This document shows, piece by piece, positions 9,830-14,860 of a stretch of DNA of 39,953 nucleotides. The notes beneath the pieces are model-generated. The model did not search any database. It was given only the letters and a program-made list of their open reading frames with translations, and was not told the origin of the DNA. The first letter of the stretch is position 1, and every line of letters starts with the position of its first letter. This stretch comes from Planktothrix serta PCC 8927 (GTDB lineage: Bacteria > Cyanobacteriota > Cyanobacteriia > Cyanobacteriales > Microcoleaceae), in assembly GCF_900010725.2 (NCBI RefSeq), contig NZ_LR734879.1, positions 106,950-146,902 on the forward strand. The letters run 5' to 3'. A program made the translations under genes and the position numbers.

Positions 9830-10108
9830 TCATTCTGGATATTTTCTGGAAGCATGAAGAACCCGAATGATTTGTACAGTTTCCTCTTTTACTCGGTAAA
9901 TGACAAGATAAGGTGTATTAGCAATGACAAGTTCTCTAGTACCTTCTACACGACCATATCTTCCCATAAATGGATATTGTGCTAATTGATTCACAGTATC
10001 CTTAATCCTCACAATTGTTTGCCTTGCTGCGTCTGCATCGTCAGAAGAAATATATGTGTACACTATCTCCAGATTTCGCAGCGCCCTTCGCAGCCACTTA
10101 ATTTTCAT
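9830..10108 (-). CDS. ParE/RelE-superfamily toxin
   Basis: A 92-residue ParE-like toxin. It starts MKIKWLRRALRNLEIVYTYIS, continues with ADAARQTIVRIKDTVNQLAQYPFMGR and then the strand region TRELVIANTPYLVIYRVKEETVQIIRVLHASRKYP. The ending VLHASRKYPE is typical of the ParE group, which usually targets gyrase, while RelE relatives target ribosomes. Sequence alone does not decide the target here. It overlaps its antitoxin by 11 bases (10,098-10,108), so translation is coupled. Confidence 0.85.
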   Translation of the reverse strand: MKIKWLRRALRNLEIVYTYISSDDADAARQTIVRIKDTVNQLAQYPFMGRYGRVEGTRELVIANTPYLVIYRVKEETVQIIRVLHASRKYPE

Positions 10109-10340
10109 TGATTAACTTAGCAAAAACACCTTGAACTTCTTCATCGCTGGCAAAGTCATTTGCTTCTGCTTCACCAATACCTCTCTCGATCTCTGAACCT
10201 AGCCATTGATTAATGTCCAGATAGCTGTCAATCGCCTCATTAACTACGTCGCTGAAATCCCTTTCCATTAAGGTAGCGATCGCAGAAATTGCAGCTTTTT
10301 TCTCGCTATCCAATGTTAGCATCATGTTTTCTTTGTTCAT
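10098..10340 (-). CDS. Antitoxin of the ParE-like module (ribbon-helix-helix type)
   Basis: An 80-residue protein: a short strand MMLTLDSEKKAAISAIATLMERDFSDVVNEAIDSYL that fits a ribbon-helix-helix DNA-binding domain, then an acidic toxin-binding tail (EIERGIGEAEANDFASDEEVQGVFAKL). The ATG at 10,340 is used; ATGs at 10,325 and 10,322 would begin at the strand itself and are plausible. The adjoining upstream region holds a HIP1-linked repeat. It probably autoregulates the operon. Confidence 0.75.
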   Translation of the reverse strand: MNKENMMLTLDSEKKAAISAIATLMERDFSDVVNEAIDSYLDINQWLGSEIERGIGEAEANDFASDEEVQGVFAKLINEN

Positions 10341-10394
10341 CGTTTGTATGGTTATTATCAATAGTATGATGTCATTATAACATATCTTCCTTTT

Positions 10395-10421
10395 TTTTCC
10401 AAATAACAAAAGGTGCGATCG
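10395..10421. repeat. HIP1-linked repeat, partial copy
   Basis: TTTTCCAAATAACAAAAGG followed by TGCGATCG. It matches the start of the longer copies at 11,107-11,185 and 11,910-11,985. It lies between the divergent ParE-like and DUF433/DUF5615 modules. Confidence 0.7.
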
Positions 10422-10493
10422 TCATTCCTTAAGTTAAAATATAAGTTGTCATATCCGATCATATAACTGATCAGATTCATCAAAAGACAAGTT

Positions 10494-10718
10494 ATGCCTG
10501 TAAACTGGAGAGAACATATCGTTAGTACCCCCGATGTACTGCGAGGTAAACCAAGAATCAAAGGAACTAGAATTCCCGTTAGTCTGATTTTAGGATATTT
10601 AGCATCAAATAACACTGTCGAACAAATCATGGACGAGTTTCCAGATATTGTCAAAGAACAGATAGCTGCTTGTCTTGATTATGCTCGTGATTTATCAGAT
10701 TTTGAAACAGTTGCCTAA
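10494..10718 (+). CDS. DUF433 antitoxin-like protein
   Basis: A 74-residue DUF433 protein: WREHIVSTPDVLRGKPRIKGTRIPVSLILGYLASNNTVEQIMDEFPDIVKEQIAACLDYARD. DUF433 has a helix-turn-helix-like fold and is commonly encoded just before a DUF5615 (PIN-like) gene, as here. It is the predicted antitoxin and operon repressor. Its stop and the next start overlap by one base (TAATG). Confidence 0.85.
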   Translation: MPVNWREHIVSTPDVLRGKPRIKGTRIPVSLILGYLASNNTVEQIMDEFPDIVKEQIAACLDYARDLSDFETVA

Positions 10719-11086
10719 TGGGTTTAAGATTGTTCATCGATCAATGTGTTCCTAAGTCTATTATTTCAATCCTTCGTGATACCGAACATGAAGTTTTTGT
10801 ATTGGGAGATTACATTCCAATTGAATCTCCAGATATTATTGTCATTGCCAAAGCTCAGGAATTAAATGCCATACTTGTTTCTCTCAATGGAGACTTCGCA
10901 GATATTGTGACTTATCCGCCAAGTTCATATCAAGGAATCATTTCTATTCAACTGAGAAATCACCCGGAAATTATTCCTCAGTTGATGGCAAGGCTAACAG
11001 AATACTTATCATTGCACGATAGTGAGGAGCATTATCGAGGTAAATTACTACTGGTAGAAGTTTACAGAATTCGCATTCGAGAGTAA
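10718..11086 (+). CDS. DUF5615 PIN-like toxin candidate
   Basis: A 122-residue DUF5615 protein, a PIN-like nuclease family paired with DUF433. It opens with RLFIDQCVPKSII, where D8 fits the first acidic ligand. ESPDIIVIAKAQ and ILVSLNGDFADIV follow, then QGIISIQLRNHPEIIPQLMARL. The usual T-x-D-x-D-F block reads SLNGDF, with Asn at the first acidic position; I believe this is common in one cyanobacterial subgroup. Activity is therefore not certain. It is coupled to DUF433 by TAATG. Confidence 0.8.
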   Translation: MGLRLFIDQCVPKSIISILRDTEHEVFVLGDYIPIESPDIIVIAKAQELNAILVSLNGDFADIVTYPPSSYQGIISIQLRNHPEIIPQLMARLTEYLSLHDSEEHYRGKLLLVEVYRIRIRE

Positions 11087-11106
11087 AAATTGACAGCGAT
11101 CGCCAT

Positions 11107-11185
11107 TTTTTCCCAAATAACAAAAAGTGCGATCGCTCTTTTTTTACAAGATGCGATCGCGCTTATTTTCCGAAAGTGCGATCGC
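11107..11185. repeat. HIP1-linked repeat, copy A
   Basis: TTTTCCCAAATAACAAAAAG, then three GCGATCGC sites spaced by T-rich and AAGAT blocks. It aligns to 11,910-11,985 over almost its full length. It fills the space between two convergent modules (DUF5615 and VapC), where its paired HIP1 sites could also act as a two-way transcription stop. Confidence 0.75.
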
Positions 11186-11214
11186 CTCATATCAAGCTTT
11201 TACCCGTTACAAAC

Positions 11215-11613
11215 TCATAGCAATATGACAGGAATGTGCGATCGGAAATTCTCAAAATCTTTATCAGTAGTGAAAATGCTGTAGCCGCGACGATGAGCAA
11301 CGGCACATAGCAGAAAATCAGTATTTGAACCCTGAACGCCTTTAGTGCGACAGGTATTGAAAAACTCTGCGGCTAACTCATAATCTTCAGTTGTTAGCTC
11401 TAAATCAGGAAAAGCTCGAAGATACTCTTGCAAACGAACAAACTGTTCCTTATAGCGCACCCCAGAAAGCACCTCCTGACGAATAGCCCCTAGTAAAACA
11501 ACTCGTCCATCTACAATCAAATCGCGCAGAACATTAACGATCACGATCGCATCATTTGTTGTGTTCCGCCGCAATGCCAGCGACCAAACGGAACTATCAA
11601 CAAGAACATTCAT
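11215..11613 (-). CDS. vapC: VapC-type PIN-domain toxin
   Basis: A 132-residue PIN ribonuclease with all acidic positions: D6 (LVDSSVW), E47 (IRQEVLSG), D99 (GSNTDFL) and D117/D119 (TTDKDF). The SSVWSLALRR start and CAVAHRRGYSIFTTDKDF near the end are typical of VapC, which usually cleaves tRNA or rRNA. It overlaps the upstream antitoxin by four bases (ATGA). Confidence 0.9.
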   Translation of the reverse strand: MNVLVDSSVWSLALRRNTTNDAIVIVNVLRDLIVDGRVVLLGAIRQEVLSGVRYKEQFVRLQEYLRAFPDLELTTEDYELAAEFFNTCRTKGVQGSNTDFLLCAVAHRRGYSIFTTDKDFENFRSHIPVILL

Positions 11614-11810
11614 AAGGTTTGTCGCTGTTGCTTGTAGTTATAATCTTCATCGTAGTCAATAGCACCAAACAATTCCAATATTTTTAGTTGTTTACGACGT
11701 TGAATATACTCGCGTAAAGCTGCTTCAATTAATGTAGTAGGTGTTGAATGGTTACTCAAATCAAGAGCTTCTTGAAGAAGAGTTTTGTCAATTTCGAGCG
11801 TAGTTACCAT
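11610..11810 (-). CDS. vapB: VapB-family antitoxin
   Basis: A 66-residue VapB-type antitoxin. MVTTLEIDKTLLQEALDLSN and TPTTLIEAALREYIQRRKQLKIL form a ribbon-helix-helix DNA-binding part. The acidic/aromatic tail LFGAIDYDEDYNYKQQR is the usual toxin-blocking segment of this VapB type. The ATG at 11,810 is chosen because AGGAGG stands nine bases upstream. Translationally coupled to vapC. Confidence 0.88.
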   Translation of the reverse strand: MVTTLEIDKTLLQEALDLSNHSTPTTLIEAALREYIQRRKQLKILELFGAIDYDEDYNYKQQRQTL

Positions 11811-11909
11811 GTATTTTCCTCCTGCAAGTAGGGTATGACACAATTGCCACCAGACAATACTGTAATTCTAGTGTAGCACTGAAACTCCTTTAAGGGGCGA
11901 TCGCCCTTA

Positions 11910-11985
11910 TTTTCCCAAATAACAAAAGGTGCGATCGCTCTTTATTTGGAAGATGCGATCGCGTTTTTTCCAAAAGTGCGATCGC
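11910..11985. repeat. HIP1-linked repeat, copy B
   Basis: Second long copy of the unit at 11,107-11,185, again with three HIP1 sites. Here it lies between the divergent VapBC and BrnT modules. Another HIP1 is at 11,897-11,904. The rest of the 11,844-12,069 gap shows no gene. Confidence 0.75.
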
Positions 11986-12069
11986 GTTCTGAATTTAATT
12001 TCTGGAAGAAAGAAAAACCTAGTTTCGCTGATACTTTCGCTTTTCTCTAAATAATGTTAATATTGAAGT

Positions 12070-12363
12070 ATGGATAGTGTGTACAGACTACAAGGTATTG
12101 ACTTTGAATAGGACACAAACAAAGCCGAGAGCAACCTAGAAAAACATGGCGTTAGCTTTGAAGAAGCCGCAGAAGTTTTCTTCGATCCATTCTATCAGGA
12201 GGGAGACGCTACTGGCAGTGAAGAACCCCGCGATTTTATACTGGGTTATTCCCTTTCTCAACGCCTATTACTCGTAGTTTATGTAAAACGTAGTCTGCGA
12301 ATCCGCATCATTTCTTCCCGTCCTGCTACCCGCACTGAAAGGAAATTATATGAACAATCCTGA
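12070..12363 (+). pseudogene. brnT: BrnT-family toxin gene with in-frame stop
   Basis: Read from ATG 12,070, the frame encodes a BrnT-type toxin of 97 codons (RelE-like ribonuclease fold): a KAESNLEKHGVSFEEAAEVF core, a VVYVKRSLRIRIISSRPATR strand block and an RKLYE end. Codon 14 (12,109-12,111) is TAG, where the family has the Trp of FEWD, a single G-to-A change from TGG. The rest of the frame is intact to TGA at 12,361. The product would be a 13-residue peptide unless the amber codon is suppressed or is a sequencing error. It overlaps the start of its antitoxin by 14 bases. Confidence 0.85.
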
Positions 12364-12646
12364 AGCAGAAATAAAATTGCAATTGCGGCCTCGGATCACG
12401 GAAACAGTCTCGATTGAAGTCCCAATAGATACTTTAGAATCACTGACAAAAATAGCGACAATTCGAGATATGTCTGTAGAAGCGTTGCTGAAGTTTTATA
12501 TAGGACAAGGCTTACGGACAGACTTAACTAAAGCCTTTTCAGAACGCCTGTTGGATACAACGGCTCAAGTTCTAGCCAGACATCTTGATTCAGAAGAAGA
12601 AATATCCACGATTATTCGAGAAATTCAAGCTGAAACTGCACGTTAA
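12350..12646 (+). CDS. Antitoxin partner of BrnT (CopG/RHH-like)
   Basis: A 98-residue protein that starts inside the end of the brnT frame, the usual order for BrnT modules. It has a strand TETVSIEVPIDTLESLTKIA, a helix pair DMSVEALLKFYIGQGLR and a C-terminal helical part ending in EEEISTIIREIQAETA. This fits a ribbon-helix-helix regulator and is unlike classical BrnA. With the toxin frame interrupted it would be an orphan antitoxin, perhaps still useful against a related toxin elsewhere. GAAAGGAAATTAT precedes the ATG. Confidence 0.75.
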   Translation: MNNPEAEIKLQLRPRITETVSIEVPIDTLESLTKIATIRDMSVEALLKFYIGQGLRTDLTKAFSERLLDTTAQVLARHLDSEEEISTIIREIQAETAR

Positions 12647-12735
12647 ATGATAGCGTAATTACAAAAATAAATGCGATCGCTCTTTCTTTCCCAAAGCGCG
12701 ATCGCTTCTCTCTAACTTCTATTCCTCTTACGTTT

Positions 12736-12999
12736 CTAAGCAACAGCTAGTTCATATTGCAGAACTAAAATTTCATCTGCTTTTAAAATAGCCATAGCAT
12801 ATTCAATCCCTTGACTATCAGCAAACTCCACTAAATACCGACATTCCTTTTCCGTATCATACACTTCAACAATAGTTCCTACAAGTCCTACTGGTAAACT
12901 AGGTACAGATTCGTATTCCGGTTCCACTAGCGTTAACCGTGTATTTGAAATAGGCTTGAGAATAGCAACAGAATCGAAAAGTTTAAGGTGTTTTGTCAT
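12736..12999 (-). CDS. DUF4926 domain-containing protein
   Basis: An 87-residue protein recognised as DUF4926: LKLFDSVAILKPI, then LPVGLVGTIVEVYDTEKECRYLVEFADSQGIEYAMAILKADEIL. The pattern is a small beta-barrel (SH3/KOW-like) domain of unknown function. It is translationally coupled (ATGA overlap, 12,996-12,999) to the DUF6883 gene upstream, and I have the impression that the two families co-occur. Its role in a TA-like unit is inferred from setting only. Confidence 0.75.
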   Translation of the reverse strand: MTKHLKLFDSVAILKPISNTRLTLVEPEYESVPSLPVGLVGTIVEVYDTEKECRYLVEFADSQGIEYAMAILKADEILVLQYELAVA

Positions 13000-13328
13000 A
13001 GTTTAAGGAAAGCTGAAATCAAACGAGGATTAGAATTAGTTGAAGTAATTTCCCAAATTGTCCGAAGTTGAATCCCTGCTGTATTGGGTACAGTCCAATC
13101 AACTTTAAACTGTTGCCCAAAATCAGTAATATTTTGTTGGATAACTTCACCTTCAATAGCTGCTTTTTGAATAAGCTCTCGCAAAACCTCTGCATTGTTA
13201 GTGGTGATTCCCAAAACCGACGCAAAGACTCTGGCTTTGTGTTTGCCACTCGAATGCTCTTGATTTAAGCAGTAGCCGACCAGCTTTTGCAGAGAAATTT
13301 CAGCCTGATTACCATTGGGTAGTTTCAT
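12996..13328 (-). CDS. DUF6883 domain-containing protein
   Basis: A 110-residue protein resembling DUF6883: KLPNGNQAEISLQKLVGYCLNQEHSSGKHKARVFASVLGITTNNAEVLRELI and a C-terminal VDWTVPNTAGIQLRTIWEI. The conserved NxEHxxGKHKARVF block, with His and Lys residues, looks like a catalytic or nucleic-acid-binding motif. No activity is known to me. A strong GGAGGAG precedes the ATG. It lies 12 bases after the DUF433 gene and overlaps DUF4926, so the three form one operon. It could be the toxin of the set, but that is inference. Confidence 0.75.
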   Translation of the reverse strand: MKLPNGNQAEISLQKLVGYCLNQEHSSGKHKARVFASVLGITTNNAEVLRELIQKAAIEGEVIQQNITDFGQQFKVDWTVPNTAGIQLRTIWEITSTNSNPRLISAFLKL

Positions 13329-13340
13329 TATAACTCCTCC

Positions 13341-13658
13341 TCACCTCCTAATTAGGATCAATTTTTCTTGTAACGGAGAGGGTGGACTATTGCGCTTTAA
13401 TTCTTCTACCCTAGCTCGACTTTCAGCCGTGCGGCGATCAATTTCTTCTCTATGATCGTAATAATAAGTCATTGCTGCATGAACAGAGGCTAGAGGCAAA
13501 TCATACTTACCTGCGATTTCTTCTATAGAAATTCCCATTTTGAGATACATTTCGGCGATGTGTGCTACAGCAATTCGATGACCTGAAATGCACGGTTTAC
13601 CACCAAGTACCCCAGAGGTGATTTCAATATGTTCTGTGATGACAGATTTCTTAGACAT
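13341..13658 (-). CDS. DUF433 protein without a DUF5615 partner
   Basis: A 105-residue DUF433 protein (IEITSGVLGGKPCISGHRIAVAHIAEMYLKMGISIEEIAGKYDLPLASVHAAMTYYYDH) with a longer C-terminal tail (RRTAESRARVEELKR). DUF433 normally precedes DUF5615; here DUF6883 and DUF4926 follow instead, 12 bases away. It is probably the regulator/antitoxin of that operon or a leftover antitoxin. The first 30 bases of this gene are nearly repeated at 14,831-14,860. Confidence 0.85.
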   Translation of the reverse strand: MSKKSVITEHIEITSGVLGGKPCISGHRIAVAHIAEMYLKMGISIEEIAGKYDLPLASVHAAMTYYYDHREEIDRRTAESRARVEELKRNSPPSPLQEKLILIRR

Positions 13659-13793
13659 TATAGTAAAAGACTCTTAATAGTTAATGTTTAATCTCTTTAA
13701 TGTTAGCACAAATAGATGTAGTGCGATCGCCGCTAAAAATTTAACTACTTACCAATAGTATTAGCCGAACTCTAATTAATGAATAAATGTGCT

Positions 13794-13848
13794 GGTATCG
13801 CTCCTTTTTTATTAGGGGCAATAATTTTTATTTAGAAGATGCGATCGC
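13794..13848. repeat. 56-bp dispersed repeat, copy 2
   Basis: Matches 9105-9160 from GGTATCGCTCC to AAGATGCGATCGC, differing mainly in the middle (ATAATTTTTA against GATCAGTTTTTG). It lies between the DUF433 operon and the NCFAWA gene. Confidence 0.8.
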
Positions 13849-13854
13849 CCTTCC

Positions 13855-14295
13855 CTAATTTACTGCACGTTTGAGAATTTGAGCGACAACTCCGTACCTA
13901 TCCCCCGTCAATCCATCCAGTTCGTGTTCAATATCTTCCAACCAGCCCAGCTTACTCGTCCACTTACCATTTGCTAATTGTCTAGCTGCATGAGTTGGAA
14001 TACCGCTTGAGTCAATATATATCGCTATTTTCTCATATCCAACTTCTAATCCATCGCCCTGACAAATTTCATATCCCAGTGTTTTATAAGCCTGAATATA
14101 GGCTGCTATCGTCTCCTCTTGCGGCACACCTTCTGGCCAATAAAATTGCTCTCCAGGTATCGGTTGCCACCAACGATCATTTTCCGCCGCCGCCCATGCA
14201 AAGCAGTTATATTCTTGAGATTTGGGGCTGGTAACTTGATAATCCGTGCGAGATAAATTTTGCCACTTAACTTCAAGTTCTGGTCTTCTATACAT
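13855..14295 (-). CDS. NCFAWA protein, predicted papain-like Cys/His fold (DUF7689-like)
   Basis: A 146-residue protein of unknown function resembling DUF7689. The block around YNCFAWAAAEN places C31 at a helix start, and THAARQL gives H102 after an aliphatic strand (GYEKIAIYID). KLGWLEDIEHELDGL supplies D121. This C...H...D order fits a papain-like or transglutaminase-like enzyme, a prediction not shown for this family as far as I know. It starts eight bases inside the end of the upstream RHH-domain gene, so the two are co-translated. In the setting of this island it is a candidate toxin or effector. Confidence 0.65.
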   Translation of the reverse strand: MYRRPELEVKWQNLSRTDYQVTSPKSQEYNCFAWAAAENDRWWQPIPGEQFYWPEGVPQEETIAAYIQAYKTLGYEICQGDGLEVGYEKIAIYIDSSGIPTHAARQLANGKWTSKLGWLEDIEHELDGLTGDRYGVVAQILKRAVN

Positions 14296-14776
14296 TATCT
14301 TCGATCGCGTAACCTTGATTTTTACCCCACTCTATCCAAGCTGATGCCATCTGTTTTACCCGACCCCTTTGTTCTGATTTAATCGGATTTTCACCCGTAA
14401 TTGCAGTCAACGCTGATAACCAGTAAAGCGGATTATTTTTGAGTTCTAATAGCAAAATCGGCACTATTTTAGTTCCCATATTAATAATTTCCTGATAGGC
14501 TGGATGCTCAGACATTTGAGCAGTTGAAGACAGTCCAGAAACCTCTTTCTCCCAATCGGAGGCTAGTGCATAAAATTTTTCAACTACCTCTGTGGAAATT
14601 TCAGCATTGTTGTTAAGGCTATTTTTAGCAGTATTTGGTGAAGAAAATTCTCCCCGTGCGAGAAAGTTTTCTATCCCTATTAAGACTAACTCTTCTATCG
14701 ACAGATTCAGTTCGTTGGCAACTTGTTGTAATTTGAGAAGGCGCTCATCTGAAATAGAGATTGAGATCGTGTTCAT
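14288..14776 (-). CDS. RHH-domain protein with HPAYQ-type C-terminal domain
   Basis: A 162-residue two-domain protein. Residues 1-42 (MNTISISISDERLLKLQQVA through SIEELVLIGIENFLARG) fit a ribbon-helix-helix DNA-binding domain. A linker leads to a C-terminal helical domain: SEHPAYQEIINMGTKIVPILLLELKNNPLYWLSALTAITGENPIKSEQRGRVKQMASAWIEWG. This resembles small bacterial proteins of unknown function. It overlaps the next gene (NCFAWA protein) by eight bases. The order DNA-binding protein first, possible enzyme second is that of toxin-antitoxin operons. The function is inferred. Confidence 0.65.
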   Translation of the reverse strand: MNTISISISDERLLKLQQVANELNLSIEELVLIGIENFLARGEFSSPNTAKNSLNNNAEISTEVVEKFYALASDWEKEVSGLSSTAQMSEHPAYQEIINMGTKIVPILLLELKNNPLYWLSALTAITGENPIKSEQRGRVKQMASAWIEWGKNQGYAIEDNV

Positions 14777-14788
14777 CTGGATTACAAA

Positions 14789-14860
14789 CTAGCATAATGC
14801 CTTGAGTGTAGCAAAAAAATTACTGACTTTATGTTTTGTGATGACGGATTTATTAGACAT
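14789..14860 (-). pseudogene. Truncated 5' end of a second DUF433 gene
   Basis: From ATG 14,860 the frame starts MSNKSVITKH and stops after 23 codons. The first 30 bases differ from the start of the 13,658 DUF433 gene (MSKKSVITEH) at only three positions, after which similarity ends. It is the leftover of a duplicated or recombined DUF433 gene. Confidence 0.7.

Follow-up and report, generated by a model that had tools for sequence, protein, structure and literature searches.

Tse1/Tsi1 and staphopain/staphostatin are pairs of a cysteine enzyme and a dedicated inhibitor protein. In type II and Panacea toxin-antitoxin modules, the genes form an overlapping operon with the antitoxin first, and the antitoxin joins a DNA-binding or sensor domain to an exchangeable neutraliser. 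Antitoxins built of a DNA-binding domain and a separate, exchangeable neutralising element are described in PMC10440598, and the modular antitoxins of the Panacea/NetFlax network in PMC8832971 and PMC10440598. According to PMC11481870, AdfB of a lytic phage, an antitoxin-like protein without toxin, counters DarTG.

The locus described here matches the type II layout, consisting of two small, overlapping and co-directional genes. The first encodes a domain designated HPAYQ, which would be the exchangeable neutraliser behind a DNA-binding or sensor domain, and the second a DUF7689 protein. Judged from sequence comparisons, the pair is rather probably a toxin-antitoxin-like module, with DUF7689 as toxic part and HPAYQ as inhibitor, used in the conflict between phage and host. 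As far as checked, the pair is undescribed.

The two genes and their products

The window is a stretch of 39,953 nucleotides from Planktothrix serta PCC 8927, and both open reading frames are present on its minus strand as given in a preliminary description of this DNA. Gene 1 (14288-14776, minus strand, 162 aa, ATG start), the predicted antitoxin or inhibitor gene, combines an RHH-like N-terminus (about residues 1-50, minus strand) with a conserved, widely fused C-terminal module of about 100 aa (14306..14605, minus strand, about residues 58-157), named HPAYQ here after its motif. Gene 2 (13855-14295, minus strand, 146 aa, ATG start) specifies DUF7689 (PF24738), a predicted toxic thiol enzyme. 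According to the open reading frame coordinates, the genes share eight bases (14288-14295, minus strand), an overlap that would be consistent with coupled translation.

Gene 2 reaches 150.8 bits with the DUF7689 model, compared to a cut-off of 22.6 (E 3.4e-44, model positions 1-118 of 118). For HPAYQ, represented by an alignment of 73 sequences (A5), no model was found in Pfam, NCBIfam or PHROG, Pfam giving scattered weak matches only. The PADLOC defence models yielded zero families for either window protein (E up to 0.01). Searches of solved structures by sequence gave unconvincing best matches, ribosomal protein L28 for DUF7689 (E 0.14) and a designed protein for HPAYQ (E 0.18). Neither window protein was matched in 72,556 plasmids; in 50,697 phage records, one match to HPAYQ and none to the window DUF7689 were obtained. 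A viral DUF7689 (L255) as query produced no match in the same phage records and detected 12 Bacteroidota plasmids. A literature search for 'DUF7689' found no paper, so that the earlier statement of no described function still holds for the literature and model libraries searched.

The RHH domain and the conserved C-terminal domain that had been assigned to gene 1 fared differently. The C-terminal domain is present, while support for RHH is indirect, the window protein staying below detection for RHH models in the Pfam scan. One member of the gene 1 family alignment matched RHH_1 at 0.003, and the start of gene 1 resembles short proteins of about 65 aa (best match 46% over 65 aa, E 3e-10). These short RHH-like relatives stand alone and are followed by a Doc-type gene in four of eight loci inspected (L217, L218, L221, L062); Fic/Doc was confirmed by a domain match in the one Doc-type gene checked. 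The window pair is therefore like RHH-Doc (Fic) pairs in its RHH-like start and unlike them in its HPAYQ C-terminal part and in DUF7689 at the place of Doc. A SocA_Panacea domain was absent from the gene 1 protein in the Pfam scan.

Fourteen sequences of each family, the window's included, gave a median dN/dS of 0.22 for HPAYQ (52 pairs) and 0.13 for DUF7689 (67 pairs). Chance open reading frames were ruled out, because these low ratios indicate purifying selection on both genes and because the pair recurs.

A cysteine, a histidine and an aspartate of DUF7689 in papain-like order, C31 (codon 14203-14205, minus strand), H102 (13990-13992, minus strand) and D121 (13933-13935, minus strand), had been proposed as catalytic residues. 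All three are at the positions claimed. In 68 DUF7689 sequences, C31 is a cysteine in 66 and a serine in two of one genus, H102 is present in all, and D121 is not universal, being an aspartate in 66. Y29, N30, G110, W112, S114, G117 and H124 (13924-13926, minus strand) are likewise invariant. H124, which had not been named before, is thus more constant than D121 (68/68 versus 66/68). In Bacteroidota proteins outside this set, the cysteine and both histidines are kept by eye, but not the aspartate. These patterns fit a predicted cysteine-histidine enzyme, in which a role of H124 would be no less likely than one of D121. The designation papain-like received no support at sequence level, since DUF7689 matched no peptidase family, solved structure or NlpC/P60 by sequence. 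Peptidase families were not detected with 52 DUF7689 members at E up to 10, and hhalign revealed no link to the single NlpC/P60 protein that the genome encodes (0.15% probability). The pair would resemble Tse1/Tsi1 and staphopain/staphostatin as a candidate cysteine enzyme with a dedicated inhibitor, but it differs from them in that no sequence relation of DUF7689 to a peptidase family or NlpC/P60 was found.

Recurrence, mobility and one-sided damage

DUF7689 is present in 23 of 386 cyanobacterial genomes, at 29 places in total, and gene 1 gave matches in 32 of these genomes, some through the RHH-like part alone. In 22 of the 29 places DUF7689 is intact; 21 of these have an intact HPAYQ gene directly upstream, and the 22nd (L023) is located at a contig end. 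The same survey revealed damaged DUF7689 genes behind an intact HPAYQ (L018, L026, L027, L031, L034), one protein with DUF7689 followed by a weak HPAYQ match (L033), and a remote DUF7689-like protein without HPAYQ (L028). The latter divergent protein (L028/L073) was considered and rejected as a DUF7689 relative; it reaches PF24738 at 7e-6, yet is only weakly like the cyanobacterial profile (2.5%). On viral contigs, HPAYQ lies upstream in 16 of 17 DUF7689 loci when its profile is widened with viral matches, L261 being the exception. Intact DUF7689 without HPAYQ therefore amounts to none of 21 readable cyanobacterial genes and one of 17 viral loci. In a survey of three genomes around a delta-proteobacterium, both DUF7689 copies of one delta-proteobacterial genome were paired with HPAYQ. 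The pairing is thus recurrent in Cyanobacteria, in one delta-proteobacterial genome and on viral contigs. The source genome itself harbors a second full pair, with a DUF433 gene, a PIN gene and a weakly matching DUF5615 in its vicinity, and one HPAYQ gene without DUF7689. Protein distances of HPAYQ and DUF7689 correlate (r 0.77, none of 2000 permutations as high; 69 of 107 pairs retained once near-duplicates were removed), which indicates co-inheritance, not contact. HPAYQ first and DUF7689 second are two co-inherited genes under purifying selection.

Comparison within the genus covered 10 genomes among the matches listed and defined a mobile unit of 1,046 bp (13785..14830). In one Planktothrix relative (G391), the whole unit with the same two ends is found at another place; in another (G261), it is absent from the matching site, where 83 non-aligning bases are present instead. 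In Planktothrix, the pair moves as one block of about 1 kb. Gene 1 is kept where DUF7689 has received a 442-bp insert (G253) or an internal deletion (G387), and it is reduced to a fragment in G390. The insert of G253 splits DUF7689 near the YNC motif (L223 2421-2862); it had no match in Rfam, and its ends look to be of the IS200/IS605 type, as we presume.

The toxin-antitoxin-like setting noticed earlier was confirmed, a ParE toxin, a VapB/PIN pair and a DUF433/DUF5615 pair being located within the same 5 kb as the pair. The toxin-antitoxin-type run at 9830-14776 of the window comprises ParE, DUF433/DUF5615, VapB/PIN, DUF6883, DUF4926 and DUF433. Its genes are separated by intergenic repeats rich in GCGATCGC, which may drive their shuffling. 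By eye, positions 14826-14860, 5' of gene 1, resemble the start of the DUF433 coding sequence at 13341-13658, which gives the impression that the unit inserted next to the beginning of a DUF433 gene.

When 84,980 species genomes were scanned with a pattern, 250 HPAYQ relatives were identified, the best 80 of which were analysed; by their record titles, these 80 are cyanobacterial save one delta-proteobacterium. Among these best 80 of 250 loci, both genes are intact in 44. HPAYQ is intact in another 32, with DUF7689 partial in 16 and not found in 16. HPAYQ is broken in four, with DUF7689 partial in three and not found in one; a broken HPAYQ next to an intact DUF7689 was not observed. Hence, 36 of the 80 loci have a DUF7689 that is damaged or was not detected, against four with a damaged HPAYQ, in a sample that was ranked by HPAYQ match and is therefore biased towards intact HPAYQ. 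When grouped by sequence, the 32 discordant loci represent 15 clusters, for which a sign test gives 6e-5. The sample of 386 genomes, in which DUF7689 was searched first, agrees with the one-sided damage.

Several of these loci need a closer look. In L121, L132, L140 and L151, the partial DUF7689 is nearly whole and split between two frames, which could be sequencing error. Five of the 16 loci scored as 'not found' contain a short N-terminal DUF7689 remnant according to tblastn (L134, L142, L152, L160, L163), so part of the kept HPAYQ genes may represent young decay. L142 is not countable as a DUF7689 loss, because its contig stops 143 bp after HPAYQ. Subtracting the five leaves 11 of the best 80 of 250 HPAYQ loci with no trace of DUF7689. 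In L079 (4689-6270) and L128, HPAYQ without DUF7689 is followed by an apparent cytosine methyltransferase gene and a further gene, an arrangement resembling a restriction-modification unit by eye.

HPAYQ outside the pair

HPAYQ without DUF7689 was also found in five records of phages or viruses, of which two are nearly the same. One is a record of 484 kb from an uncultured phage. Two are contigs whose HPAYQ proteins are identical and are encoded between genes for a DnaB-like helicase and a DNA primase, and the remaining two are contigs of 139.5 kb and 198 kb. The 198-kb contig (L244) showed scant phage signal in three genes checked, and its HPAYQ frame is long with an uncertain start. Since contigs of viruses may be incomplete, the lack of DUF7689 is most reliable in the 484-kb record. 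The HPAYQ proteins of L166 and L164 as queries detected no further virus. In L170, the full pair is flanked by portal and neck genes, and in L169 it follows a head-tail adaptor gene. Six viral HPAYQ proteins (L170, L253-L256, L260) have related N-terminal sequences that include a moderately hydrophobic segment, possibly a signal or membrane anchor. An RNA ligase gene is close to the HPAYQ gene in two large phage records (L164 3992-6862, L243 4992-6916), perhaps forming a small anti-defence cluster with it. A phage HPAYQ protein without toxin is reminiscent of AdfB and DarTG as presented in PMC11481870, with a function that is predicted in the case of HPAYQ; HPAYQ and DUF7689 are different proteins from these.

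The N-terminal parts of HPAYQ proteins are diverse. An RHH-like start was counted by eye in 22 of the best 80 of 250 loci. In the 386-genome survey, HPAYQ was found behind DUF433 (L075), SocA_Panacea (L077) and GAF (L068). Wider scans revealed it with a DUF4325 STAS-like domain also matching DrmA (L109) and with a DrmD-like (DISARM-like) helicase (L115), and a viral protein (L251) combines it with Sigma-70 region 2. The starts of L064 (386-genome survey), L065 and L150 are Phd-like in our reading; Pfam gave no confirmation in L065 and L150, the two checked. Since RHH is one of many N-termini, and since the N-terminal part is nearly absent in many HPAYQ genes, it is not essential. Behind RHH, DUF433 and Panacea, HPAYQ occupies the position of an antitoxin's neutralising domain. 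It is HPAYQ's N-termini that vary and not its toxin, because DUF7689 is the sole recurrent partner identified in the loci read. The one protein with a Panacea domain constitutes a likeness to the Panacea network, whereas helicase, sigma factor and GAF proteins as hosts and a domain without model in the libraries scanned do not.

Eight relatives of the DrmD-like helicase without HPAYQ end 2-18 aa past the shared region, from which it follows that HPAYQ was joined at the native C-terminus of the helicase. In GAF relatives of 608 and 620 aa that lack HPAYQ, we read the C-terminal parts as histidine kinases; HPAYQ occupies that place in the fusion. These fusions would allow another arrangement, in which HPAYQ would be a portable inhibitor repeatedly joined to unrelated C-termini. 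Each host (DISARM-like helicase, GAF proteins in the kinase place, Panacea, sigma factor) would then trigger the DUF7689 killer, and phages would carry HPAYQ-only decoys. We regard this as possible, if on the unlikely side; it would make the pair a plug-in effector module with interchangeable sensors.

The helicase fusions also bear on whether the pair is simply a selfish addiction cassette landing at the 3' ends of host genes and borrowing their expression without a role in defence. HPAYQ does sit at a native C-terminus there, and the pair persists when the host gene decays. It is still present where the helicase middle is missing (52 to 921, L118) and where about 14-25 residues of the helicase start remain (L111, L113, L116, L117), with a remnant match of E 9e-7 in L111 and weak ones of 0.02-0.14 in the other three. 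The mobile 1,046-bp block of Planktothrix would be in line with this as well, but HPAYQ alone in phage records is unexpected of a pure addiction cassette, and we consider such a hitch-hiker highly improbable.

In Bacteroidota, both domains can be part of one chain. In two plasmid proteins, what looks by eye like a lipoprotein signal is combined with DUF7689 (E 8.8e-27 in the one scanned) and an HPAYQ-like C-terminal domain. Profile comparison of three sequences related this domain to HPAYQ with 96% probability (E 3e-9), and L072 alone with 62%. A Parabacteroides protein has DUF7689 and HPAYQ behind secreted-type domains by eye, and on Bacteroides plasmid pBUN3 the HPAYQ-like domain occurs alone in a 139-aa gene with an apparent lipoprotein signal. 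A MAC/perforin gene is located two genes away from the DUF7689-HPAYQ gene of one conjugative Bacteroides plasmid (L264 3833-8054). The two domains are therefore found together in, and probably also out of, the cytoplasm. Secreted single-chain proteins of this kind are awkward for a toxin-antitoxin reading; with HPAYQ as inhibitor in cis, the Bacteroidota protein would be a zymogen.

Such single-chain proteins, in Bacteroidota and one cyanobacterium, and the existence of secreted forms would be expected if DUF7689 were a useful enzyme and HPAYQ its obligate partner, a helical subunit for folding, targeting or substrate binding, with the N-terminal domains positioning the enzyme. The strong constraint on DUF7689 would fit as well. 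This explanation is nevertheless unlikely, because an accessory subunit alone should be useless and HPAYQ is found without a trace of DUF7689 in 11 of the best 80 of 250 loci, in phage records and on pBUN3; moreover, damage on the HPAYQ side only was never seen in the best 80 of 250 loci. The apparent lipoproteins on conjugative plasmids two genes from a MAC/perforin gene, together with the HPAYQ-like gene with apparent lipoprotein signal on another plasmid, could instead indicate an effector-immunity pair, DUF7689 being delivered to rival cells and HPAYQ shielding the producer. The window DUF7689, however, is a single domain of 146 aa with no signal peptide visible by eye, and the HPAYQ gene precedes it, which makes delivery to rivals very unlikely here.

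Proposed function

A toxin, DUF7689, with its inhibitor, HPAYQ, is favoured because of the one-sided damage, the antitoxin-like architecture, HPAYQ without DUF7689 in phages and the toxin-antitoxin neighbourhood. The recurrence of the pair, both domains in one chain elsewhere and the agreement of protein distances support the toxin-antitoxin reading further. It is weakened by several observations. One would not expect a toxin to carry its inhibitor permanently in the same chain, although a zymogen would be compatible with this; in one genus, two sequences have a serine in place of C31; antitoxins are not typically located behind a sigma factor, helicase or GAF, as HPAYQ is in some proteins; and G390 keeps a gene 1 fragment only, and viral L261 lacks HPAYQ.

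In the proposed toxin-antitoxin-like module, HPAYQ would bind DUF7689 and keep it inactive, and the RHH part of the window copy would bind the promoter of its own operon. DUF7689 would act as a cysteine-histidine enzyme with C31, H102, H124 and perhaps D121, harmful to the cell once freed; as a guess, it might cleave or modify a protein. Release could occur, for example, when phage infection halts the renewal of HPAYQ or when a phage product disturbs the complex. HPAYQ alone in phages would serve as a counter-measure soaking up DUF7689.

For DUF7689, a domain of unknown function, the pair suggests a role that can be tested, and its partner domain, which lacks a model, now has a name. Nature also provides an experiment, in that the same presumed inhibitor ends very different proteins and occurs alone in phages. 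If the toxin-antitoxin reading is true, the pair would exemplify an addiction module carried along at the 3' ends of other genes, and DUF7689 would represent a new toxin family, with a probable cysteine-enzyme mechanism, in the phage defence of cyanobacteria.
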